From Dactylococcopsis salina PCC 8305 (GTDB lineage: Bacteria; Cyanobacteriota; Cyanobacteriia; Cyanobacteriales; Rubidibacteraceae): a DNA stretch of 64,000 bases. Location: contig NC_019780.1 of NCBI RefSeq assembly GCF_000317615.1, positions 2,811,840 through 2,875,839 of the forward strand. The letters are read 5' to 3'. Position 1 is the stretch's first letter; each line of letters opens with the position of its first letter. Positions 4,550 through 48,750 of this stretch are shown here, piece after piece. Made by a program: the position numbers and the translations under genes. Under the pieces are notes generated by a model. The model saw only the letters and a list, made by a program, of their open reading frames with translations, did no database searches and was not told where the DNA came from.

Positions 4550-5355
4550 GAGAACAGATTTTAGAAGATGCTTTCGCTTTTAGTCAAAGTTTGACGAAAC
4601 GCATTGGAGAAACTCTAAGCCAACAGTTTGGGAAGGTACAAGCGCAACATAAACCCGACGGATCACTGGTGACAGATTCTGATCAATGGGCAGATGAGCA
4701 AATTCGCAGCGCGATCGCCTCTCAATTCCCCGATCATGGCGTACTCACCGAGGAAACCGTTCATATCTTCCCAGACAAGGAATGGTGTTGGGTGATTGAT
4801 CCCATTGATGGCACAACGAACTTTACACGGGGGATTCCCGTTTGGGGGATTTCTATGGGGTTACTTTATCGCGGAGTGCCCGTGTTTGGATATGTTCATT
4901 TTCCGATTTTGCAACAATCCTTTCATGGTTTCTGGTTGACAGGTTCAGGATTAAGCGGCGAAAATGGTGCTTATCGCAACGGGGAAGTGATTAAAAGCAG
5001 TCCTGATGAACCGAGTCAGAGTCATTTGTTTAGTTTGTGCGCCCGCAGTACCTCGGTTTTTAAGCAGTCTTTACCCTGTAAAACTCGCGTGGTTGGGGTT
5101 TGTACCTATAGCTTTTTATTGGTTGCTAGTGGCGCAGCTTTAGGCGCGATCGAAGCGATTCCGAAAGTGTGGGATATCGCAGCCGTATGGGCGATCGTGC
5201 AAGCAGCAGGAGGAAAATTTGTTCCCCAGACTCCCACCTCGGTTTTCCCATTAGAAGCGGGAGTGGATTACGGGAAAAAACCCTTACCGACATTGGTCGT
5301 CAGTCGCAGTGAATTAATTTCGGTATTTCAGCCTTTAGTGCAAGAGATGGGATAA
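4546..5355 (+). CDS. Inositol monophosphatase family phosphatase
   Basis: A 269-residue Mg-dependent sugar/inositol phosphatase fold. Metal-site motifs are present: EE at 69-70, D85-P-I-D-G-T-T-N-F93, and the C-terminal WDIAAVWAIVQAAGG (about 208-222). Family substrates include inositol phosphate, fructose-1,6-bisphosphate, histidinol phosphate and PAP; the sequence does not tell which applies here. The start codon overlaps the stop of the PucC-type gene. The second metal motif is followed by GGKFVPQTPTSVFPLEAG, a variant seen in cyanobacterial members. tRNA-Thr follows 39 bases downstream. Confidence 0.85.
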   Translation: MREQILEDAFAFSQSLTKRIGETLSQQFGKVQAQHKPDGSLVTDSDQWADEQIRSAIASQFPDHGVLTEETVHIFPDKEWCWVIDPIDGTTNFTRGIPVWGISMGLLYRGVPVFGYVHFPILQQSFHGFWLTGSGLSGENGAYRNGEVIKSSPDEPSQSHLFSLCARSTSVFKQSLPCKTRVVGVCTYSFLLVASGAALGAIEAIPKVWDIAAVWAIVQAAGGKFVPQTPTSVFPLEAGVDYGKKPLPTLVVSRSELISVFQPLVQEMG

Positions 5356-5394
5356 TTTCAAATCACAGGAAAATAAGTTATAATGTTTTTCCGT

Positions 5395-5466
5395 GCCAGC
5401 ATAGCTCAGTGGTAGAGCAACTCACTCGTAATGAGTAGGTCGTCGGTTCAAATCCGATTGCTGGCT
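5395..5466 (+). tRNA. tRNA-Thr (anticodon CGT)
   Basis: A full cloverleaf: acceptor GCCAGCA (5395-5401) pairs with TGCTGGC (5459-5465), discriminator T5466, D-arm GCTCAGTGGTAGAGC, anticodon stem ACTCA/TGAGT with loop CTCGTAA (anticodon CGT), and T-arm GTCGGTTCAAATCCGAT. The CCA end is not encoded. A T-run follows directly and can act as the terminator. Confidence 0.95.
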
Positions 5467-5479
5467 CTTTTTTTGTTGT

Positions 5480-5624
5480 ACAGTCAGAAGTAGGTTGGGT
5501 GGAGGGAAACGAAACCCAACACCAATATTCGTTATTCGTTATTTGTTATTTGTTATTTGTTGTTTGTTGTTGATCACTGATTACTGATTACTGGTCACTG
5601 GTCACTGATTACTGGTCACTGATT
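5480..5624. repeat. GGTTGGGT hairpin followed by two-part heptamer satellite
   Basis: An AGGTTGGGTGGAGGGAAACGAAACCCAAC hairpin unit (described in parts: arms GGTTGGGT and ACCCAAC) at about 5488-5520 is followed by TATTTGT-type heptamers (5525-5570) and GGTCACT/GATTACT heptamers (5572-5622). The array ends exactly where a truncated duplicate of the HicB-like gene begins. Confidence 0.85.
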
Positions 5625-5689
5625 ATGCGATTCAAGGCTGGCTAGAAGTTGCTAGTGAACAAGAAGACCTCGATCCAGAAAAGCATTAG
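5625..5689 (+). pseudogene. 3' remnant of a HicB-like gene (duplicate of 6765-6829)
   Basis: The last 21-22 codons of the HicB-like gene (AIQGWLEVASEQEDLDPEKH, TAG at 5687-5689) occur here without a start. The duplicated block runs on to about 5744, and 5625-5744 equals 6765-6884 with two visible substitutions, offset exactly 1140 bases. The heptamer satellite has taken the place of the 5' part of the gene. Confidence 0.85.
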
Positions 5690-5756
5690 AGTAAAGTGTC
5701 ATCATTGGAAAACTCGATCGCGCTTCCGATTAATTAAATACAAGAATTGTGTTTTG

Positions 5757-6458
5757 TCAGGAACGGGCTAACATTTTTTGCCGTCTAGTTTTGACAATTT
5801 CTGGCACATATTTATTTTTATCGGTTTGTCCATTAAAACCCAATCGTTCATAAACCATACCACCGATTCCAGGGATTACTTCACCTGATTTGTTACGCTC
5901 ATCATCACGGGCAAAGTAAAAGAACTGAAACTTCTGATAGATATCTTCTTCAAACTCGGCTTTGAGTTTTTCTTCTGCACCTTGATAAATGACAGGGGCG
6001 ACAACAAAAATCTGTTCAGGTTCGATTTTTTGAATGAGGTTCGTTAAATTGGTTTTGACAACACAAGCGCCAGAAATAATGGATTTTACAATAATTAAAT
6101 AGTTAACCTTGGCTTGAGTCGGTTCTTGGTATTTTTTGAGAATTGGGGCGACTTGCAAGTCTGGAATGTCGAAGGGAGAGAAGCGTTGATTCCAGAAGCA
6201 AGCAAAGGAAATGTCCTGATAACAGGTTTCTAAGCGAGAGAGAACGCCTTTTGCTAAATAGTCAGCATCTTCTACGGTAGAAGCTAGATAAATCTTGGGC
6301 TGATTTTCTGTAATTTTATTGAGAAAGATATCGCCAAAGGATTCACCGAGAGATGTCATGGCTTGGCGGTACTCGGTGGGAGACACTTGTTTATCGGCTA
6401 GGGTATCTAGTAGTTGTTGCGTGTGGGGGGTGTTGTATGGCGAATCGTGTCTTGACAT
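5757..6458 (-). CDS. Phosphoribosyltransferase-like protein with atypical PRPP loop
   Basis: A 233-residue soluble protein. The central strand-loop KVNYLIIVKSIISGACVVKTN occupies the position of the PRPP-binding loop of type I phosphoribosyltransferases (normally hydrophobic strand, then DD/ED and S/T-G-T) and EQIFVVAPVIYQGAEEKL matches the following strand. The usual acidic pair is replaced by K-S, so catalysis is doubtful and the protein may be a binding or regulatory relative. The assignment is by fold pattern only. It lies alone on the minus strand between two copies of a 120-bp duplication, which suggests it arrived or survived in a rearranged segment. ATG 6458 is followed upstream by a strong hairpin. 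Confidence 0.5.
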   Translation of the reverse strand: MSRHDSPYNTPHTQQLLDTLADKQVSPTEYRQAMTSLGESFGDIFLNKITENQPKIYLASTVEDADYLAKGVLSRLETCYQDISFACFWNQRFSPFDIPDLQVAPILKKYQEPTQAKVNYLIIVKSIISGACVVKTNLTNLIQKIEPEQIFVVAPVIYQGAEEKLKAEFEEDIYQKFQFFYFARDDERNKSGEVIPGIGGMVYERLGFNGQTDKNKYVPEIVKTRRQKMLARS

Positions 6459-6477
6459 TGGCGCAACCTATATTTTT

Positions 6478-6510
6478 GAAGTCCCACCAGTAGAGAACTG
6501 ATGGGACTTC
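6478..6510 (-). promoter_or_regulatory. Strong hairpin in the 5' leader of the phosphoribosyltransferase-like gene
   Basis: GAAGTCCCA (6478-6486) pairs with TGGGACTTC (6502-6510), extended by CAGT/ACTG inside. It sits about 20 bases upstream of the minus-strand start codon and could act as an attenuator or mark an old element end. No T-run follows on the minus strand. Confidence 0.45.
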
Positions 6511-6643
6511 GCCTTTGCTACTATAGCTCACAAGGTGCTAGTCTGTTATAGACAAATATCTTTATTGCCCTGGTCGCTTGCTAAAAAGGCAGAGGCGAAC
6601 TCAGCGCTTACATTCATAAATTTAACACGAAAATAATCAGGTA

Positions 6644-6829
6644 GTGATGAAAATTAAAGTTGTAATCTGGCAAGAAGATGGCGTTTGGTGCGGTTCTGTT
6701 CCTGCTTTACCTGGATGTCATACTTGGGGAGACAGCTACGAACATCTCCTAGAAATGCTACAAGATGCGATTCAAGGCTGGCTAGAAGTTGCTAGCGAAC
6801 AAGAAGACCTCGATCCAGAAAAGCATTAG
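6644..6829 (+). CDS. HicB-like (type II toxin-antitoxin antitoxin fold) protein, orphan
   Basis: A 61-residue protein starting GTG 6644 or ATG 6647. The sequence KVVIWQEDGVWCGSVPALPG, then CHTWGDSYEHLLEMLQDAIQGWL, is the HicB partial RNase-H-like fold. HicB normally neutralises the RNA-cleaving toxin HicA and represses its own operon. No HicA-sized frame with the expected GSHH-type motif lies on either side, and there is no C-terminal DNA-binding extension, so this is an orphan antitoxin-fold protein. A truncated copy of its 3' end lies 1.14 kb upstream, showing past duplication in this spot. Confidence 0.75.
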   Translation: MMKIKVVIWQEDGVWCGSVPALPGCHTWGDSYEHLLEMLQDAIQGWLEVASEQEDLDPEKH

Positions 6830-6934
6830 AGTAAAGTGTCATCATTGGGAAACTCGATCGCGCTTCCGATTAATTAAATACAAGACTCGATCGCGCTTCC
6901 TTTTTCCTAAAATAATCGCGCTTTTCAGATTGGT

Positions 6935-8611
6935 TTAAAGTTCAAGGTGGTGGATAACAGAAGCAGAAATCGCACTGGCGAGTTCTTCTTTTTTCCTGAG
7001 ACTTTCTTCTACGCGATCGCAGCGTTTCATCAGTTCATCTACTTTGCTGACAATCCGTTTTTGTTCTTCTAATGGTGGTAAAGGGACTGGTGCTTTTAAT
7101 AAATCTGTATCAGAAATTGCTGGATAAGCAACTCCTTTTTGATATAATTCTACATATTCAGTAAAATATCGACCTCTTAAAAGATAATATAAGAATTGAT
7201 TAAATAAACCATCGTAAGGATGAAGAATTGAAAATGCTGTACTAGCAATTGGTTGTGGATCGTAGTCTTTCTTTATTACTGCTATATTTAGTAAATAGGG
7301 TCTTACAGTTGAGTAAATAACAGTACCTTTCTTGACAAGTTTTCTTGCTCGTGATGGTGCATTTTCTGGATTTATAACCGTAACTTCTTCTTTGACTGTT
7401 CCTGTTTTTCCGTTGATAGCTGAAACATCAATATAACTGAAAATTGTATCAGGTTTCTTTTGCCCTAAGTCATGAGTGATTTCACCAAGCCTTGCCCAAG
7501 TCCATGTAAAAGGAATACTAAACGGTTTTTCAGAAGGCTGAATTTCACTAATTTTACGATTGCGAATTGATTTAGACTTGATTAATTTTTTTCGTTGTTC
7601 TCTGATTTTCTTTAGTAATTCTGTCGCCTCTTCTCTTTGCGAGTTCTGAGGGACTAATTTTCCTCTGATTGCTAAATCTAAAATCAAATCTCGAAAATCT
7701 TTAATTCCATTTGTTTGTGTTACGATCGCGCTAAAATTGTCGCGAACAAAATGCCAACTTTTCTTAAAGTCTTTCTCAGTTTCAGCCGTTTCTAAAGCAT
7801 GAATCGCCGATCGCCGTAGCTGTTGCTGTAATTCGTTGCGGTTTTTCTTGCTTGCTTGGGCGCGATCGCAGCATTTCATTAGTTCATCTACTTTGCTAAC
7901 AATCCGTTTTTGTTCTTCTAATGGTGGTAAAGGGACTGGTGCTTTTAATAAATCTGTATCAGAAATTGCTGGATAAGCAACTCCTTTTTGATATAATTCT
8001 ACATATTCAGTAAAATATCGACTTCTTAAAAGATAATATAATAATTGATTAAATAAACCATCGTAAGGATGAAGAATTGAAAATGCTGTACTAGCAATTG
8101 GTTGTGGATCGTAGTCTTTCTTTATGACTGCTATATTTAGTAAATAGGGTCTTACAGTTGAGTAAATAACAGTACCTTTTTTGACAAGTTTTCTTGCTCG
8201 TGATGGTGCATTTTCTGGATTTATAACCGTAACTTCTTCTTTGACTGTTCCTGTTTTTCCGTTGATAGCTGAAACATCAATATAACTGAAAATTGTATCA
8301 GGTTTCTCTTGCCCTAAGTCATGAGTGATTTCACCAAGCCTTGCCCAAGTCCATGTAAAAGGAATACTAAACGGTTTTTCAGAAGGCTGAATTTTACTAA
8401 TTTTACGATTGCGAATTGATTTAGACTTGATTAAATTTTTTCGTTGTTCTCTGATTTTCTTTAGTAATTCTGTCGCCTCTTCTCTTTGCGAGTTCTGAGG
8501 GACTAATTTTCCTCTAATTGCTAAATCTAAAATCAAATCTCTTAAACATTGAATCCCATTTTCTGCTTCTATGATGACATCAAAATTTTCCCAAAGTATA
8601 TTTAAATCCAT
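6935..8611 (-). CDS. hsdS: Type I restriction-modification specificity subunit with duplicated recognition domains
   Basis: A 558-residue HsdS. Each half has a target-recognition domain followed by a conserved helical spacer (LPPLEEQKRIVSKVDELMK, at about 235-255 and 518-540). HsdS reads the two halves of a bipartite DNA site and docks two HsdM. Here the two recognition domains are nearly the same sequence: both contain PFSIPFTWTWARLGEITHDL, SYIDVSAINGKTGTVKEE and PIASTAFSILHPYDGLFNQ. Normal HsdS recognition domains are dissimilar. The prediction is that both half-sites are the same, giving a palindromic bipartite target. The ATG shares base 8611 with the hsdM stop, so translation is coupled. 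No frameshift is visible. Confidence 0.92.
   Translation of the reverse strand: MDLNILWENFDVIIEAENGIQCLRDLILDLAIRGKLVPQNSQREEATELLKKIREQRKNLIKSKSIRNRKISKIQPSEKPFSIPFTWTWARLGEITHDLGQEKPDTIFSYIDVSAINGKTGTVKEEVTVINPENAPSRARKLVKKGTVIYSTVRPYLLNIAVIKKDYDPQPIASTAFSILHPYDGLFNQLLYYLLRSRYFTEYVELYQKGVAYPAISDTDLLKAPVPLPPLEEQKRIVSKVDELMKCCDRAQASKKNRNELQQQLRRSAIHALETAETEKDFKKSWHFVRDNFSAIVTQTNGIKDFRDLILDLAIRGKLVPQNSQREEATELLKKIREQRKKLIKSKSIRNRKISEIQPSEKPFSIPFTWTWARLGEITHDLGQKKPDTIFSYIDVSAINGKTGTVKEEVTVINPENAPSRARKLVKKGTVIYSTVRPYLLNIAVIKKDYDPQPIASTAFSILHPYDGLFNQFLYYLLRGRYFTEYVELYQKGVAYPAISDTDLLKAPVPLPPLEEQKRIVSKVDELMKRCDRVEESLRKKEELASAISASVIHHLEL
7013..7692. repeat. Direct repeat B of the hsdS recognition domain
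   Basis: This 680-bp block repeats 7862-8541 at an offset of 849 bp (283 codons, so in frame) with few substitutions by eye. It encodes the C-terminal recognition domain and part of the spacer. Confidence 0.9.
7862..8541. repeat. Direct repeat A of the hsdS recognition domain
   Basis: This is the partner of 7013-7692 and encodes the N-terminal recognition domain. Such high nucleotide identity inside one gene points to a recent tandem duplication or gene conversion, and makes the gene prone to loss of one half by recombination. Confidence 0.9.
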
Positions 8612-10083
8612 TACATTTCCTCCCTTTGTAAAGATGCCATTAAACTTGATTTTAGCGCATTTCTAGCTTCTTCCACTTCTGCTTCCGCTTCCCGATATTT
8701 CTTTAACAACGTCTCAGGGTCTTTATAATCTTCTGCTGCAACATTGGGGTTTTTAATATCCAGATTAAACCCATTCGCTTTAATATCCTCCACTGAAACT
8801 TGCCAAGCCAACTCCGTTTCCTCGCGATTATTCCACCATTGCTTCTCCGCTGCAAACTCCTCAATCCGCATCGGCTTAGTTTTGGAGTAAGATTTATAGC
8901 CAGAGGGATAGGGGTGTTCGTAATACCAGACCGTTTCTGTGGGTTCGCCCTTAGTAAAAAACAAAACATTGGTGCGAATGCTGGTATAAGGATTAAACAC
9001 GCCATTGGGTAAACGGACAATGGTATGTAAATTACAATCGCGCAGCAGCTTCTCTTTTAAGCGCGTTTTAATGCCTTCCCCAAATAATGTCCCATCAGGA
9101 AGCACAATTGCAGCACGTCCTTGAGGTTTCAATAATTCCATCACCAGCAATAAAAATAAATCTGCTGTCTCTCTGGTGCGAAACTCAGTGGGAAAATTGG
9201 ACTCAATGCCATCTTCTTCCATCCCCCCAAACGGTGGATTAATCACCACCACATCCACCTGATCTTTCGGGCTATAATCGCGGAGGGGTTTAGCTAAGGC
9301 GTTCGCATGACGCACCGTTGTCGGGACTTCCACCTCATGCACCATTAAATTTGTCACGCAGAGTAAGTGAGGTAAGGCTTTCTTCTCAATTCCCCAAATA
9401 TTTTGTTTAATCGCTTCCAACTGTTCGGGGGTTTGCGCTTGTTTTCGCAGATGTTCATAGGCTGCGGTTAAAAAGCCTCCCGTTCCGCAAGCAGGGTCTA
9501 ATACTGTCTCCCCTAACTGCGGGTTCACCATATCCACTGCAAACTGAGTAACCGCGCGAGGGGTGTAAAACTCCCCATAATTCCCCGCACTCTGTAAATC
9601 TTTCAGGATTTTCTCATAGATATCGCCAAATAAATGTCGGGTTTTCGATTCGTTAAAATCAATGGAATCATTAATCTTATCAATCACCTGTCGCAGCAGC
9701 GTCCCCGACTTCATGTAATTGTAAGCATCCTCAAACACACTGCGAAGCAATTCCGCACGCTGTCGAGATAACCCTGTAAGATTAGTAAAGTCTAATTCCT
9801 TTAATTGGGGAAATAGCTGATTATCCACAAACGCCAAAAGCGCATCCCCTGTGGGGGCTTTTTTTCCCAATGTCTCACTATCCGCCCATTCTTCCCACCG
9901 CAAACCCATCGGAATCGGGGATTCATACTCATCATCGCTGAGTTCCAATTCTTGATCTTGGTCGCTAAACTTCTTGTAAAACAGCATCCATCCCAATTGA
10001 CCAATGCGCTGGGCATCACCATCCACGCCCACATCTTTGCGCATAATGTCTTGAATAGATTTAATCGTGGCATTGAGAGACAT
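8611..10083 (-). CDS. hsdM: Type I restriction-modification DNA methyltransferase subunit
   Basis: A 490-residue N6-adenine methyltransferase. An N-terminal helical HsdM_N domain (SLNATIKSIQDIMRKDVGV onward, about 1-140) precedes the SAM-binding motif DPACGTGGFLTAAYEHL (about 196-212) and the catalytic NPPFGG motif (about 282-287). With HsdS it would methylate the target adenines. Length and motifs are those of a complete protein. It is first in the minus-strand pair with hsdS. The restriction subunit gene upstream is broken, so this enzyme probably now works only as a methyltransferase. Confidence 0.95.
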   Translation of the reverse strand: MSLNATIKSIQDIMRKDVGVDGDAQRIGQLGWMLFYKKFSDQDQELELSDDEYESPIPMGLRWEEWADSETLGKKAPTGDALLAFVDNQLFPQLKELDFTNLTGLSRQRAELLRSVFEDAYNYMKSGTLLRQVIDKINDSIDFNESKTRHLFGDIYEKILKDLQSAGNYGEFYTPRAVTQFAVDMVNPQLGETVLDPACGTGGFLTAAYEHLRKQAQTPEQLEAIKQNIWGIEKKALPHLLCVTNLMVHEVEVPTTVRHANALAKPLRDYSPKDQVDVVVINPPFGGMEEDGIESNFPTEFRTRETADLFLLLVMELLKPQGRAAIVLPDGTLFGEGIKTRLKEKLLRDCNLHTIVRLPNGVFNPYTSIRTNVLFFTKGEPTETVWYYEHPYPSGYKSYSKTKPMRIEEFAAEKQWWNNREETELAWQVSVEDIKANGFNLDIKNPNVAAEDYKDPETLLKKYREAEAEVEEARNALKSSLMASLQREEM

Positions 10084-10088
10084 ATAGC

Positions 10089-10240
10089 GATCCTAAATTA
10101 GTTTTAAATTCCTGCATTTGATCCCCCTTTAATTCCCCCCTTACTAAGGGGGGATAGGGGGGATACCTACGGCTCGGCTTGCAGCCTACGGAAGTTAATC
10201 TACTTTTTACAAATCCGATCATCTCATCTTGCTATATCGC
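10089..10240. repeat. Dispersed repeat with CCCCCC/GGGGGG hairpin, inverted relative to 14820-14945
   Basis: The block contains AATTCCTGCATTTGATCCCC, a stem built from CCCCCCTTA and TAAGGGGGG, and CTACTTTTTACAAAT...GATCATCTCATCTTG. The reverse complement of 14820-14945 carries the same elements in the same order. The two copies therefore form a long inverted pair around hsdR, parA and the GST gene. Confidence 0.8.
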
Positions 10241-10265
10241 TTTTTTTGACTTCTCTGTCATTAAA

Positions 10266-10502
10266 TCATATTAGAGAGTTGTCATCACTCTCACCCAATA
10301 ATTCTTTCATCAGTTCATCTTGTTGGGCGTTGCGTTCCTCTCTTGTTATGTGAACATATTCTTCAGCAGGGGGATCAAAGGGCTGGTGATTCCGTTGCAG
10401 AAGTTTTTGGTGTTCTTTGGCGAAACGATTAGGATGCGCTTGATCATAATCAAAGTCATATTCAGGGAGTAATTCGTCTTCAGGATGGTGTGTATTATTC
10501 AT
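10266..10502 (-). CDS. Small acidic hypothetical protein between hsdM and hsdR
   Basis: A 78-residue protein, strongly acidic and soluble: EDELLPEYDFDYDQAHPNRF, then PAEEYVHITREERNAQQDEL near the end. The phrase DYDQAHPNRFA is typical of short antitoxin-like or hypothetical proteins found next to cyanobacterial toxin or restriction genes, but I cannot assign a function. It lies inside the type I locus on the same strand as hsdM and hsdR, so a role with that system is possible by position only. Confidence 0.55.
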   Translation of the reverse strand: MNNTHHPEDELLPEYDFDYDQAHPNRFAKEHQKLLQRNHQPFDPPAEEYVHITREERNAQQDELMKELLGESDDNSLI

Positions 10503-10790
10503 AGCTTGTAGCTTGTAGGGTGGGCATTGCCCACCATAATCAATTAATTATATATAAACTTAGCGGTTAGCCCGTAAAGAAACTGCCCTGTCAAGGCATC
10601 TGTCGGGGATTTAACTCTAAGAGTAAAATCTAGATCAAAGCTCAATTAGCTCTGGTGGGCATTGCCCACCCTACGTGACTGTCAAGGCGATCTGTCGGGG
10701 ATTTAACTCTAAGAGTAAAATCTAGATCAAAGCTCAATTAGCTCTGGTGGGCATTGCCCACCCTACGTGACTCCTCATCATTGGCATTAT
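10503..10790. repeat. Two tandem 91-bp units plus GTGGGCATTGCCCAC palindromes
   Basis: No gene is seen here. The unit from CTGTCAAGGC through GATTTAACTCTAAGAGTAAA to CCCACCCTACGTGACT occurs at about 10588-10680 and again at 10679-10772 with one inserted base. Each unit ends in the GGTGGGCATTGCCCACC palindrome, which also stands alone at 10517-10537. TCTAAGAGT/ACTCT-type symmetry inside could form a second small hairpin. Confidence 0.85.
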
Positions 10791-12482
10791 TCAAGCGCTT
10801 TCGTCATCATAAAGCAATTGCTGTAACTCTCGTACCGCTTCCTGATATTGTTTCTTCCCACCAAAGGTTTTGACGATTTCCACGGGCGTTCCGATTTCTG
10901 TAAAGGGATTTAGCTTTAATACTTTTGTATCTCCTGCGGGAATAACATTTTGATCCGCATACTTTTCTAACAGCGCATCCAGTACCGCCCTTGCTTTCTC
11001 CCCATATTTGCTAAATACATCCTGTTTGCGAACTTTCTCTGCGCGTTCTCTACGGGTTAAGGGCGGTCGATCGAACGCGATATGACAAATTAGGTCAAAG
11101 GGATCATAATCTTGTCCTACCATGTCTTGTAGAGCCTCTAAAAAGACTCCTTGCTGTTGTAATTCCTCGATAATCGCCTGTTTACGATCGCTGTCTTGCC
11201 AACGTTTGAGAAATTCATCTAAAGATTGATAGGTTTCGTTAACCGTGCGACGGGTATAATCCCGTAAAGATTCGGTTACTAACTCGCCACTGGTGTCATA
11301 ATAACTTGTTCGTTCTCTGGCGACAGAAAATCTTTGTTTTCCAACCACATACTTCTGTTGCGGATTAACACTAGCCTCTTCCCCTTCTAAAACTTCGCTG
11401 ATTTCTTCGTCTGTGTTACCTGTGCGATAAGTCTGACTGTAATTTTCATCTTGAATCGGGGGACCATCCCAGTCGGGGTCCTCAAAATTATGGGTGGCGT
11501 TGCGAAAATCAATGATGGTGAAGTAATGCTTATTGTAATCGGTTCTTAAACGAGTTCCCCGTCCAATAATCTGCTTAAACTCGGTCAATGATTGAATCCG
11601 TCGATCTAAAACAATGACATGGCAAGTCTGCGCGTCAACCCCTGTGGTCATTAGTTTAGATGTGGTGACAATGACGGGATAGGCTTCTTTGGGATTGATA
11701 AAGTTATCCAGTTGGGCTTTTCCTTCAGTTTCATCCCCTGTAATTCGCATGATATAACGCCGATCGCGCTGGACAAAAGGACGATTCGCTGGCACATTCA
11801 TCAACGCTTGTCGCATGGCTTCGGCATGATCAATGTTCTCACAGAAAATGATGGTTTTTCGCATCGGATCGCCATCATGGATAAATTCCGTAATATATGC
11901 AGCGACTTCTTGGGTGCGTTGAGGAAATTTGATCGCGCGATCGAAATCCCGTACATTATAATCTCGTTCCTCAATCAACTGTCCATAATCATCTGTTTCC
12001 CCCGCGTCTGGTGTCCATCCTTCGAGATCAATATCTAAATTGACTTGCACCACCTTAAACGGGGCTAAGAACCCATCTTCAATCCCTTGTCGCAAGGAAT
12101 AGGTGTAAATCGGTTCGCCAAAATAATCAATATTAGAAATATATTCCGTTTCTCTTGGAGTTGCGGTTAAGCCAATTTGGATCGCGCTGTGGAAATAGTC
12201 CAACACTTGTCGCCAGGTGGAATCTTCCGCAGCACTCCCCCGATGACACTCATCAATCACCACTAAATCAAAAAAATCTCGATCGAACTTGCTGTAAATG
12301 CTTTCTCGTTCCTCATCTCCCACCAATGCTTGATACAGGGCTAAATAAATCTCATAAGAACTATCAATGCGCCCTTTCTCATCCACCAATTTTCGGGTTA
12401 ATTTCTGCATCGCACCGCCAAAGGGCTGAAAGTCGTTTGTCTTAGTTTGATCCACTAACGCATTACGATCCGCAAGAAATAA
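10791..12482 (-). pseudogene. hsdR: Type I restriction subunit, N-terminally truncated
   Basis: The C-terminal two-thirds of HsdR remains: [12 protein letters not shown] (helicase motif Ia region), VVIDECHRG (motif II), IGLTATP (motif III), TTSKLMTTGVDAQ (motif V), QIIGRGTRL (motif VI), then the EcoEI-type C-terminal domain. The N-terminal endonuclease domain and the Walker A motif, expected just before LFLADRN, are missing. The frame stays open upstream to 12695 only because it runs through a 9-bp satellite that adds about 70 residues of G-D-G, R-W-G and S-P-L repeats. Without ATP binding and nuclease motifs, translocation and cleavage should be lost. The missing 5' part is not elsewhere in the window. 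Confidence 0.88.
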
Positions 12483-12672
12483 CAAGGGAGACAAGGGAGA
12501 CAAGGAAGACAAGGGGGACAAGGGAGACAAGGGAGACAAGGGAGACAAGGGGGACAAGGAGGACAAGGGAGACAAGGAGGACAAGGGAGCAATGGGAGCG
12601 ATTTTTCTCCCCCATCTCCCCCATCTCCCCCATCTCCCCCCATCTCCCCCATCTCCCCCATCTCCCCCATCT
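12483..12672. repeat. 9-bp satellite hairpin (GGGAGACAA arm, CATCTCCCC arm)
   Basis: About twelve GGGAGACAA-type 9-mers (12485-12590) are followed by GGGAGCGATTTTTCTCCC and then about eight CATCTCCCC 9-mers (to 12672). The arms are partly complementary (GGGAG/CTCCC), so the whole can fold around the AGCGATTTTT core. The same core with other arm lengths occurs at 26430, 46910 and 56995; 59805 has only related 9-mers. Confidence 0.88.
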
Positions 12673-12734
12673 TCCCTCTTGCCTCTTGCATGCAAGCCTT
12701 ACTACACCAAAAACATGAACTTTTTCAGCAAACC

Positions 12735-13625
12735 CTAATTAATCTTCTTTAAAAGTTCTTCCGTTAATTGAGAAAAGGCTTTTGAACCCGAAGAGTTAGG
12801 CATTGCTAAAACCGCAGGGGTGAAGGTATCCACTGCTTTTGCTACATTAACATCCATCGGAATTTGTTGCTGAAAAATTTGATCAGGAGTAAAATCTTGT
12901 TGGATTCTTTGGATGACTTGTTTGTAATAACGACCGAATAATCCCCCACTTGATAAAATAAAAACAATTCCTAATAAACGTAATTTTTGTAATTGTTCTG
13001 ATTCACTTTTATCGTTGGCTTTTAAACGAGTGATTCGCTTTTCTAAGAGTTGAACTCCTACTAATGATAACGGTTCGGGGCGTGCGGGTAATAAATAAAA
13101 ATCACTGGCGGCGATGCCACTGCGAGTTAATAAATTATAACCTGGAGCGCAATCCATAATGATAAAATCATAATCATTAATTACAGGCTGAATAATTTTC
13201 TGAACTAAAGTTGATTCAAAATTATCCCAAGCCTGATTAAAATCTTGTCCCGAATTAGAAATCGCTTCCTCGTGGAGTTTTTTAGAAACTAAATACTCGT
13301 CATAAAGTTCAATATCTCCTGCTAATAATTCTAAACCACTAATGCCACAAATTTGAGAATAAATTAAGTCGGGGGTGTCGTATTTGCGACGAATGTTAGG
13401 GCGAACAATTTTATCAATTAAATAACTGAGGGTGCGACGACGGCGGCGAACTTTGCTAAATTCTTGGGGAGGCATTAAACTCAGTGTGGCGCTGATTTGT
13501 GAATCGAGATCAACCACTAATACTCGTTTCTGATGGTTTTTCGCTAAACAGGTGGCAAGATTGACGGTGAGGGTGGTTTTTCCCACGCCTCCTTTCATGT
13601 TAACGGTACTAATAACAATTCCCAT
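12735..13625 (-). CDS. ParA/MinD-family P-loop ATPase
   Basis: A 296-residue ATPase. I choose ATG 13625 (MGIVISTVNMKGGVGKTT); a longer frame to 13646 exists. The deviant Walker A KGGVGKTT (about 11-18), Walker A' VLVVDLDSQ and switch IIMDCAPG are all present, as in ParA-type partition proteins that bind DNA nonspecifically as ATP dimers. There is no ParB gene next to it, so this is an orphan ParA that may position some cargo or descend from a plasmid. It lies inside the region bounded by the inverted repeats at 10.1 and 14.9 kb, next to the broken hsdR, which suggests a mobile origin. Confidence 0.9.
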   Translation of the reverse strand: MGIVISTVNMKGGVGKTTLTVNLATCLAKNHQKRVLVVDLDSQISATLSLMPPQEFSKVRRRRRTLSYLIDKIVRPNIRRKYDTPDLIYSQICGISGLELLAGDIELYDEYLVSKKLHEEAISNSGQDFNQAWDNFESTLVQKIIQPVINDYDFIIMDCAPGYNLLTRSGIAASDFYLLPARPEPLSLVGVQLLEKRITRLKANDKSESEQLQKLRLLGIVFILSSGGLFGRYYKQVIQRIQQDFTPDQIFQQQIPMDVNVAKAVDTFTPAVLAMPNSSGSKAFSQLTEELLKKIN

Positions 13626-13708
13626 TGTGGCAGTTTTTGGCAGCACGATCGAGCTTAGTTTACCATGAAATTAGCATCGATCGAGCAAATCAAAAAGGAT
13701 CATTTTCC

Positions 13709-14401: not shown

Positions 14402-14489
14402 TTAATTGTTTATACAGCCGTTATTAGTCTAACTTTATTGGCGGTTGGGGCGAGAGAATTGACAATTAATCTAAAATTTGCATATAACA

Positions 14490-14800
14490 GTTCCCCCCTT
14501 TCAAAGGGGGGTTAGGGGGGATAGCTCAATAGAACTGAGAAAAAGATTACTCTCTCAAAGGGGGGTTAGGGGGGATAGCTCAATAGAACTGAGAAAAAGA
14601 TTACTCTCTCAAAGGGGGGTTAGGGGGGATAGCTCAATAGAACTGAGAAAAAGATTACTCTCTCAAAGGGGGGTTAGGGGGGATAGCTCAATAGAACTGA
14701 GAAAAAGATTACTCTCTCAAAGGGGGGTTAGGGGGGATAGCTCAATAGAACTGAGAAAAAAGTTACTCTCTCCTTTCCCCCTTTCAAAGGCAGTAGAGGG
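14490..14800. repeat. Tandem array of about five 54-bp units
   Basis: Units begin ATAGCTCAATAGAACTGAG and end in GGGGTTAGGGGGG, with exact 54-bp spacing (14521, 14575, 14629, 14683, 14737). Because 54 is a multiple of three, one frame stays open as an 18-residue repeat (SIELRKRLLSQRGVRGDS). That frame has no other gene-like property and I do not call it coding. The CCCCCCTTTCAAAGGGGGG palindrome marks the first unit. Confidence 0.92.
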
Positions 14801-14819
14801 GATTAATTTACAAATCATT

Positions 14820-14945
14820 TGGGATTCCTATATAACAAGATGATCTCATTTGTAAAAAGTAGCTTAACTTACGATCCCCCCTAACCCCCCTTAATAAGGG
14901 GGGAATTAAAGGGGGGATCAAATGCAGGAATTTACAACTGATTTA
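14820..14945. repeat. Inverted partner of the 10.1-kb repeat
   Basis: It contains GATGATCTCATTTGTAAAAAG, then CCCCCCTTAATAAGGGGGG and GGATCAAATGCAGGAATTT, which is the reverse complement of the block at 10089-10240 with small differences. Together they flank about 4.6 kb. Confidence 0.8.
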
Positions 14946-47045: not shown

Positions 47046-47084
47046 TAGTAATAGTAAATGGTCGATCACTTATTAATTTACTGG

Positions 47085-48750
47085 TCACTGATCACTGGTC
47101 ACTGGGAATCAAGAAGTGAGAAGAGAGAATTTAGAAGTGAGTTTAAATGCCTATTTTTCTCTTTTCTCTCTACTCGTTTCTTAATGACTGGTCACTGATC
47201 ACTGGTCACTGGTCACTGGTCACTGGGAATCAAGAAGTGAGAAGAGAGAATTTAGAAGTGAGTTTAAATGCCTATTTTTCTCTTTTCTCTCTACTCGTTT
47301 CTTAATGACTGGTCACTGGTCACTGATCACTGGTCACTGGTCACTGGTCACTGGGAATCAAGAAGTGAGAAGAGAGAATTTAGAAGTGAGTTTAAATGCC
47401 TATTTTTCTCTTTTCTCTCTACTCGTTTCTTAATGACTGGTCACTGATCACTGGTCACTGGTCACTGGTCACTGGGAATCAAGAAGTGAGAAGAGAGAAT
47501 TTAGAAGTGAGTTTAAATGCCTATTTTTCTCTTTTCTCTCTACTCGTTTCTTAATGACTGGTCACTGGTCACTGATCACTGGTCACTGGTCACTGGTCAC
47601 TGGGAATCAAGAAGTGAGAAGAGAGAATTTAGAAGTGAGTTTAAATGCCTATTTTTCTCTTTTCTCTCTACTCGTTTCTTAATGACTGGTCACTGGTCAC
47701 TGATCACTGGTCACTGGTCACTGGTCACTGGGAATCAAGAAGTGAGAAGAGAGAATTTAGAAGTGAGTTTAAATGCCTATTTTTCTCTTTTCTCTCTACT
47801 CGTTTCTTAATGACTGGTCACTGGTCACTGATCACTGGTCACTGGTCACTGGTCACTGGGAATCAAGAAGTGAGAAGAGAGAATTTAGAAGTGAGTTTAA
47901 ATGCCTATTTTTCTCTTTTTCTCTCTACTCGTTTCTTAATGACTGGTCACTGGTCACTGATCACTGGTCACTGGTCACTGGTCACTGGGAATCAAGAAGT
48001 GAGAAGAGAGAATTTAGAAGTGAGTTTAAATGCCTATTTTTCTCTTTTCTCTCTACTCGTTTCTTAATGACTGGTCACTGGTCACTGGGAATCAAGAAGT
48101 GAGAAGAGAGAATTTAGAAGTGAGTTTAAATGCCTATTTTTCTCTTTTCTCTCTACTCGTTTCTTAATGACTGGTCACTGGTCACTGGGAATCAAGAAGT
48201 GAGAAGAGAGAATTTAGAAGTGAGTTTAAATGCCTATTTTTCTCTTTTCTCTCTACTCGTTTCTTAATGACTGGTCACTGGTCACTGATCACTGGTCACT
48301 GGTCACTGGTCACTGGGAATCAAGAAGTGAGAAGAGAGAATTTAGAAGTGAGTTTAAATGCCTATTTTTCTCTTTTCTCTCTACTCGTTTCTTAATGACT
48401 GGTCACTGGTCACTGGGAATCAAGAAGTGAGAAGAGAGAATTTAGAAGTGAGTTTAAATGCCTATTTTTCTCTTTTCTCTCTACTCGTTTCTTAATGACT
48501 GGTCACTGGTCACTGGGAATCAAGAAGTGAGAAGAGAGAATTTAGAAGTGAGTTTAAATGCCTATTTTTCTCTTTTCTCTCTACTCGTTTCTTAATGACT
48601 GGTCACTGGTCACTGATCACTGGTCACTGGTCACTGGTCACTGGGAATCAAGAAGTGAGAAGAGAGAATTTAGAAGTGAGTTTAAATGCCTATTTTTCTC
48701 TTTTCTCTCTACTCGTTTCTTAATGACTGGTCACTGATCACTGGTCACTG
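47085..48750. repeat. Compound satellite: 14 units of an 86-bp core plus 2, 5 or 6 GGTCACT heptamers
   Basis: GGGAATCAAGAAGTGAGAAG recurs 14 times (47104, 47225, 47353, 47474, 47602, 47730, 47858, 47987, 48087, 48187, 48315, 48415, 48515, 48643). Spacings are 100, 121 or 128 (one 129), equal to an 86-bp core plus two, five or six heptamers. The core includes TTTAAATGCCTATTTTTCTC and ends TTTCTTAATGACT. The array runs into the 3' end of accD. Confidence 0.96.

Follow-up and report, generated by a model that had tools for sequence, protein, structure and literature searches.

The target-recognition domains (TRDs) of Type I specificity subunits lie in inverted orientation (PMC3874165). An S subunit that carries the same TRD twice is an uncommon rearrangement that has already been described, and palindromic reading by such a subunit is not new. 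PMC4996451 describes two Type I S genes of Bibersteinia trehalosi, Btr188II and Btr192III, in which, as here, one TRD is present twice. The copies in Btr188II are imperfect, and the enzyme methylates ACGN6CGT; this palindromic bipartite m6A site is reported from the strains themselves and from clones of M and S (PMC4996451). The BsaXI variant 2xTRD1 shares the TRD1-CR1-TRD1-CR2 architecture of the present gene and reads ACN5GT (PMC9159934). In Helicobacter pylori, the identical TRD2 and TRD3 of JHP1422 (M.Hpy99XV) together read the palindrome AAGN5CTT (PMC3936762), and in the allele HPV225_1544 the TRD1 and TRD2 positions hold one and the same TRD sequence (Furuta et al., PMC3077401). The S subunit of M.BstXI has two similar TRDs for the same half-site, CCA, and its overall site is symmetric; half-HsdS proteins such as NgoAV use one TRD specificity twice on a palindrome (both PMC3874165). 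A sequence-only reading of the present locus had taken it that the two domains of known HsdS proteins differ and that their sites are asymmetric. That claim is not supported, in view of Btr188II, M.BstXI, the JHP1422 construct and BsaXI 2xTRD1.

The gene studied here lies in the window, a stretch of 64,000 nucleotides from Dactylococcopsis salina PCC 8305, whose genome is a single contig of 3,781,008 bases. Judged by its genes, the locus is an EcoAI-class Type I operon; EcoAI itself is a class IB system. The reading order on the minus strand is a ParA-like gene (12735-13646), a truncated hsdR (10791-12695), hsdM and hsdS (Table 1). The frames of hsdM and hsdS are intact, and the end of hsdM and the start of hsdS share 1 nt. 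The catalytic motifs of HsdM are present (DPACGTGGF for AdoMet at 196 and NPPF at 282). PADLOC assigns HsdS to Specificity_I (E 1.7e-157). In a domain search, two stretches of HsdS matched PF01420, with conserved helices between and after them. The gap between hsdR and hsdM is 707 bases and is uninformative, because its size, calculated from ORF ends, varies among relatives (approximately 100 bases in G013, 371 in G012 and 905 in G043).

Table 1. Features of the hsdS locus in window coordinates.
Feature	Position	Strand	Description
hsdS, Type I specificity subunit	6935..8611	minus	ATG-started ORF, 558 aa; near-identical TRD pair
C-terminal repeat copy, TRD2 position	7013..7692	minus	most likely the overwritten copy
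N-terminal repeat copy	7862..8541	minus	codons 24-250: conserved helix, TRD1, start of next helix; most likely the donor
hsdM	8611..10083	minus	490 aa; PF02384, PF12161
92-base tandem repeat, 2 copies	10588..10772		in the hsdR-hsdM gap
hsdR remnant	10791..12485	minus	helicase and C-terminal part; homologous to G013 HsdR residues 217-780
9-base tandem repeats	12482..12676		occupy the place of the missing HsdR N-terminus

Further repeats were observed in the window. A 121-base direct repeat (98% identical) is found at 5625-5745 and 6765-6885, the second of which extends over the end of a small ORF at 6644-6829, which was labelled HicB-like by eye. Five 54-base repeats at 14478-14843 can be read as an open frame, which is probably no gene. 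At 47080-48750 a 128-base unit built from ACTGGTC heptamers is repeated about 14 times in an array. A second Type I locus of the genome (L066, G000:C1:2104000-2116000) has a 414-aa hsdS ORF and what appear by eye to be pieces of M and R genes, among which stands a 554-aa ORF resembling a reverse transcriptase.

hsdS contains a direct, in-frame repeat. In a shifted self-comparison the two copies are identical at 669 of 680 bases, with a shift of 849 bases (3 x 283 codons). Composition alone would give agreement at approximately 175 of the 680 positions, and outside the repeat the agreement drops to 9-17 per 30-base block. The repeat search by itself reported only a 300-base part (97% identical). 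The block holds 11 differences, six amino-acid changing and five silent. From the first to the second copy the residue changes are N59K, K73E, E102K, L190F, S197G and C247R. Counted over 224 codons, six amino-acid changing and six silent differences give a pN of 0.012, a pS of 0.038 and a pN/pS of 0.31 (Fisher p 0.039; the numbers are small), a weak sign that both copies may have been kept in use. The sequence-only reading had given the same coordinates for the repeat, had called both recognition domains nearly identical and had considered the copying recent; the DNA-level alignment of the halves that it proposed as a check is the one given above. On all three points it was borne out. By its divergence, the copying would be young relative to the split from G013, the pS of 0.038 between the copies standing against a dS of 0.97 for hsdM.

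In the predicted structure of HsdS (mean pLDDT 85, pTM 0.69), the order of elements is almost the same in the two halves, and a long helix follows each half (231-275 and 514-557). S subunits, from Type I enzymes or related ones, make up the first nine fold matches in the PDB. The top fold matches, 3okg and 5ybb (Thermoanaerobacter HsdS), also match in sequence. As a whole, the model fits 3okg only modestly (TM 0.45 by query and 0.60 by target).

The best HsdS match among the 59 relatives searched is in G013, where the gene order is R-M-S. HsdM and HsdR are 88% and 85% identical to their counterparts there, and HsdS is 36% identical. Conserved R and M proteins with exchanged recognition domains are the usual Type I pattern. 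The conserved parts of the two hsdS genes align in order, and this allowed the segments that bound each TRD to be compared. The segment before TRD1 agrees with the N-terminal segment of G013 at 36 of 42 nt. The segment before TRD2 agrees with that same N-terminal segment at 33 of 42 nt, and with the middle segment of G013, which lies in its own position, at 22 of 42. Beyond the block, the scaffold matches by position: the sequence after TRD1 matches the central helix of G013 (66/75) and that after TRD2 matches its C-terminal helix (58/75). Since the segment proximal to TRD2 is nearer the N-terminal type and the flanks are positional, most likely the TRD1 block was the donor and replaced the TRD2 block. 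This N-to-C direction is based on the single relative G013. Copying from C to N was considered as well; it is rejected on the proximal segment against this one relative, and the distal segment is non-deciding, because there neither copy is clearly nearer to one G013 segment than to the other and the distal edge of the block cannot be placed. A point against the N-to-C direction is that in several other, more distant relatives the middle segment often ends in GKLVPQ, as it does in both copies here; this comparison concerns middle segments, the N-terminal segments of these relatives having mostly been missed by the motif used.

The closest TRD in the plasmid collection (107 records matched) is 51% identical and is the first TRD of its frame in pPAG5 of P. 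aeruginosa; a second match to the hsdS TRD was not found in the pPAG5 stretch. Its first position fits TRD1 being the older position in the present gene. We propose that the TRD1 block (approximately codons 24-250) was copied over the matching TRD2 block by intragenic recombination. The exchange would have used the conserved segments flanking each TRD and would have left three parts with their own sequence, namely the N-terminal tip, central helices and C-terminal helix. We infer this recombination route, as well as expression and activity of the locus.

Halves that are at least 80% identical over at least 100 residues were found in 2 of 94 HsdS-like ORFs, the window hsdS and L009 in genome G051; this is no rate, because L009 was found by its resemblance to the window gene. 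The ORFs counted were 340-640 aa long, were recognised by a motif expression and BLAST at 1e-5, and were aligned half against half. For 63 of them the source was a set of 80 stretches, one from this genome, taken from the best matches listed by score for PF01420 in 148 genomes; the other 17 stretches gave a protein already counted, one of the wrong length or one that was not recognised. The remaining 31 ORFs, the window gene included, came from searches with the proteins of this locus and are biased towards it. None of the 63 ORFs in the PF01420 subset has halves of at least 80% identity, the next highest values being 53.5% over 114 residues and 50.5% over 192 residues.

The halves of the cyanobacterial hsdS in L009 (817-2115, minus strand) are identical at 490 of 540 bases and at 88.7% of 203 residues. 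Compared with the window TRD, the two TRDs of L009 show 43% and 40% identity. In the phylum sample, 6 of the other 385 genomes have a TRD as similar as this (E 1e-15). Because L009 and the window hsdS differ in scaffold and length, their duplications seem to have arisen independently. A GTDB contig scan with a single protein returned one distant locus. Six relatives (L047-L052) were fetched, and hsdM is fragmented or partial in three of them, L050, L051 and L052 (genomes G020, G054 and G029). The R gene is broken in L051, and none was seen in L052.

The HsdR of the window lacks its head, which, like the N-to-C direction of copying, had not been noticed in the sequence-only reading. The remnant matches NF046051, the R family of EcoAI/FtnUII, with a score of 817 against a cut-off of 550, and the match spans only 210-768 of 768. 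In G013, HsdR has HSDR_N at 50-112, Walker A at 194 and DECH at 294; HSDR_N is also near 50-112 in the three other full-length relatives scanned. The alignment with G013 starts at residue 217. The first 216 residues, with the HSDR_N nuclease region and Walker A, are gone, and of these motifs DECH alone is retained. A domain search found no HSDR_N in the window HsdR.

The first 70 or so codons of the hsdR ORF consist of the 9-base repeats. This part has at least 26 further matches in the genome, all within residues 1-89; the whole-genome search with the repeat-bearing protein scored 21 of 172 candidates and says nothing on absence. With the repeat-free remnant as the query, only the remnant itself matched, and no second HsdR of this family was found in the genome. 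A head that had moved or been split off was looked for in two ways. A PF04313 search pointed to three places, the best of which sits in the second Type I locus of the genome (L066). The 225-aa N-terminal part of the G013 protein, used as a direct query, had no match in the genome (G000), and the same query was matched in three of three control genomes, one of them its source. The remaining 564 codons are free of stops and have a dN/dS of 0.056 against G013, so the loss of the head is probably recent. The locus is not a complete Type I restriction-modification system: with the nuclease region and Walker A lost from HsdR, the complex could methylate and could not restrict. On these grounds restriction by the locus is very unlikely and methylation is possible, and the locus would be at most a methyltransferase.

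An M2S complex with this HsdS would read one half-site twice, XXX-Nn-X'X'X', with an adenine methylated on each strand. The same half-site would be read twice because the TRDs of HsdS sit inverted across an antiparallel coiled coil. By analogy with the systems described above, a single polypeptide is likely to read an interrupted palindrome. The sequence-only reading had predicted such a symmetric site, and the duplicated TRD supports it in this main point. Taken together, we consider it probable that this is an EcoAI-class hsdS in which the TRD1 block was copied over TRD2, with a symmetric predicted site and methylation without restriction; the loss of restriction would have made the change of specificity harmless. 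Searches of PDB-type, phylum-sample and plasmid-collection data found no characterised close relative of the TRD. Among the literature matches listed, no title indicated a methylome study of D. salina; a paper on HIP1 mentions the organism.

The duplication could instead be without consequence, hsdR being broken and hsdS a freely drifting leftover of a dying locus. The missing 216 residues of HsdR are in line with this, as is the frequency of broken M or R genes near related hsdS genes (three of the six relatives fetched); the second Type I locus of the genome also looks broken by eye. The low dN/dS of hsdM (0.077 against G013) is no sign of function, because the broken hsdR has a value just as low and both values predate the losses. 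Nevertheless, hsdM and hsdS are full-length, overlapping and stop-free, and the pN/pS between the copies, small as its numbers are, also argues against free drift. We regard a dying locus as unlikely. Alternatively, the two copies may already have diverged in specificity, which would make the site asymmetric or relaxed on one side. All six residue differences lie inside the repeat block, and by position E102K, L190F and S197G fall within the TRD; for TRD groups of H. pylori, differences of a few residues are described as accompanying altered half-sites. The differences are nevertheless limited to 6 of 224 residues, and Btr188II, with imperfect copies, is reported to remain palindromic (PMC4996451), which makes divergence in specificity improbable.

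The repeat might also act as a switch, in which homologous recombination removes or adds the 849-base unit and alters the state of the enzyme. Long near-identical tandem repeats are good substrates for homologous recombination, and 680 such bases are present here. Deletion would leave an in-frame single-TRD protein of 275 aa; single-TRD forms are known to read palindromes (PMC3874165), and a three-TRD S protein exists in H. pylori (PMC3936762). However, after a deletion the shortened protein should still recognise one half-site twice, with hardly any change in specificity expected. There is also no silent copy, as the two matches of the TRD in the genome are both inside hsdS. No inverted repeat of at least 30 nt was found in 5000-10500; inverted repeats and silent copies would mark a phase-variable (inverting) hsdS, and the searches here showed neither. 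A switch by the direct repeat is highly improbable. It is true that short reads can misassemble repeats of 680 bases. An artefact of assembly is nonetheless extremely improbable: the 11 differences are scattered through the block, whereas copies produced by collapse or expansion should be identical, and the unique flanks of both copies match G013 in order.

Returning to the copied TRD1 block and its predicted symmetric site, the order of events can be considered. Loss of the HsdR head may have come first and freed hsdS to homogenise, giving a stand-alone methyltransferase with symmetric m6A on an interrupted palindrome. We find this full sequence of events doubtful. The order is only a suggestion, because similar decay occurs in other relatives. 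The loss of HsdR may also mark the onset of decay across the locus. If the proposed order is right, this would be a one-polypeptide route from a restriction system to an epigenetic marker. A locus that has lost restriction is also a test case for the idea that new specificities become fixed more readily when the enzyme can no longer cut the cell's own DNA. The half-site, once measured, would help to decode a TRD family that is present in other bacteria.

In comparison with this locus, BstXI is a Type II system. The TRDs of its M.BstXI S subunit are similar rather than near-identical, unlike those of the window hsdS, and the NgoAV S protein is truncated with a single TRD, whereas HsdS here is a long chain with two (both PMC3874165). 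BsaXI 2xTRD1 differs in being laboratory-made, Type IIB and only partially active (PMC9159934). Natural JHP1422 carries one more TRD, unlike the other two, and has an asymmetric site in addition, the version with two TRDs being a construct (PMC3936762), and HPV225_1544 is a Type IIG S gene (PMC3077401). The loci of Btr188II and Btr192III are reported to have the order M-S-R and an R gene, unlike the window locus (PMC4996451). The present gene would be a natural example of how a single recombination step can turn the asymmetric site of a Type I enzyme into a symmetric one, and the close relative G013 points to the likely donor and direction. What it adds to the known kind is this likely direction of copying, together with a headless HsdR.
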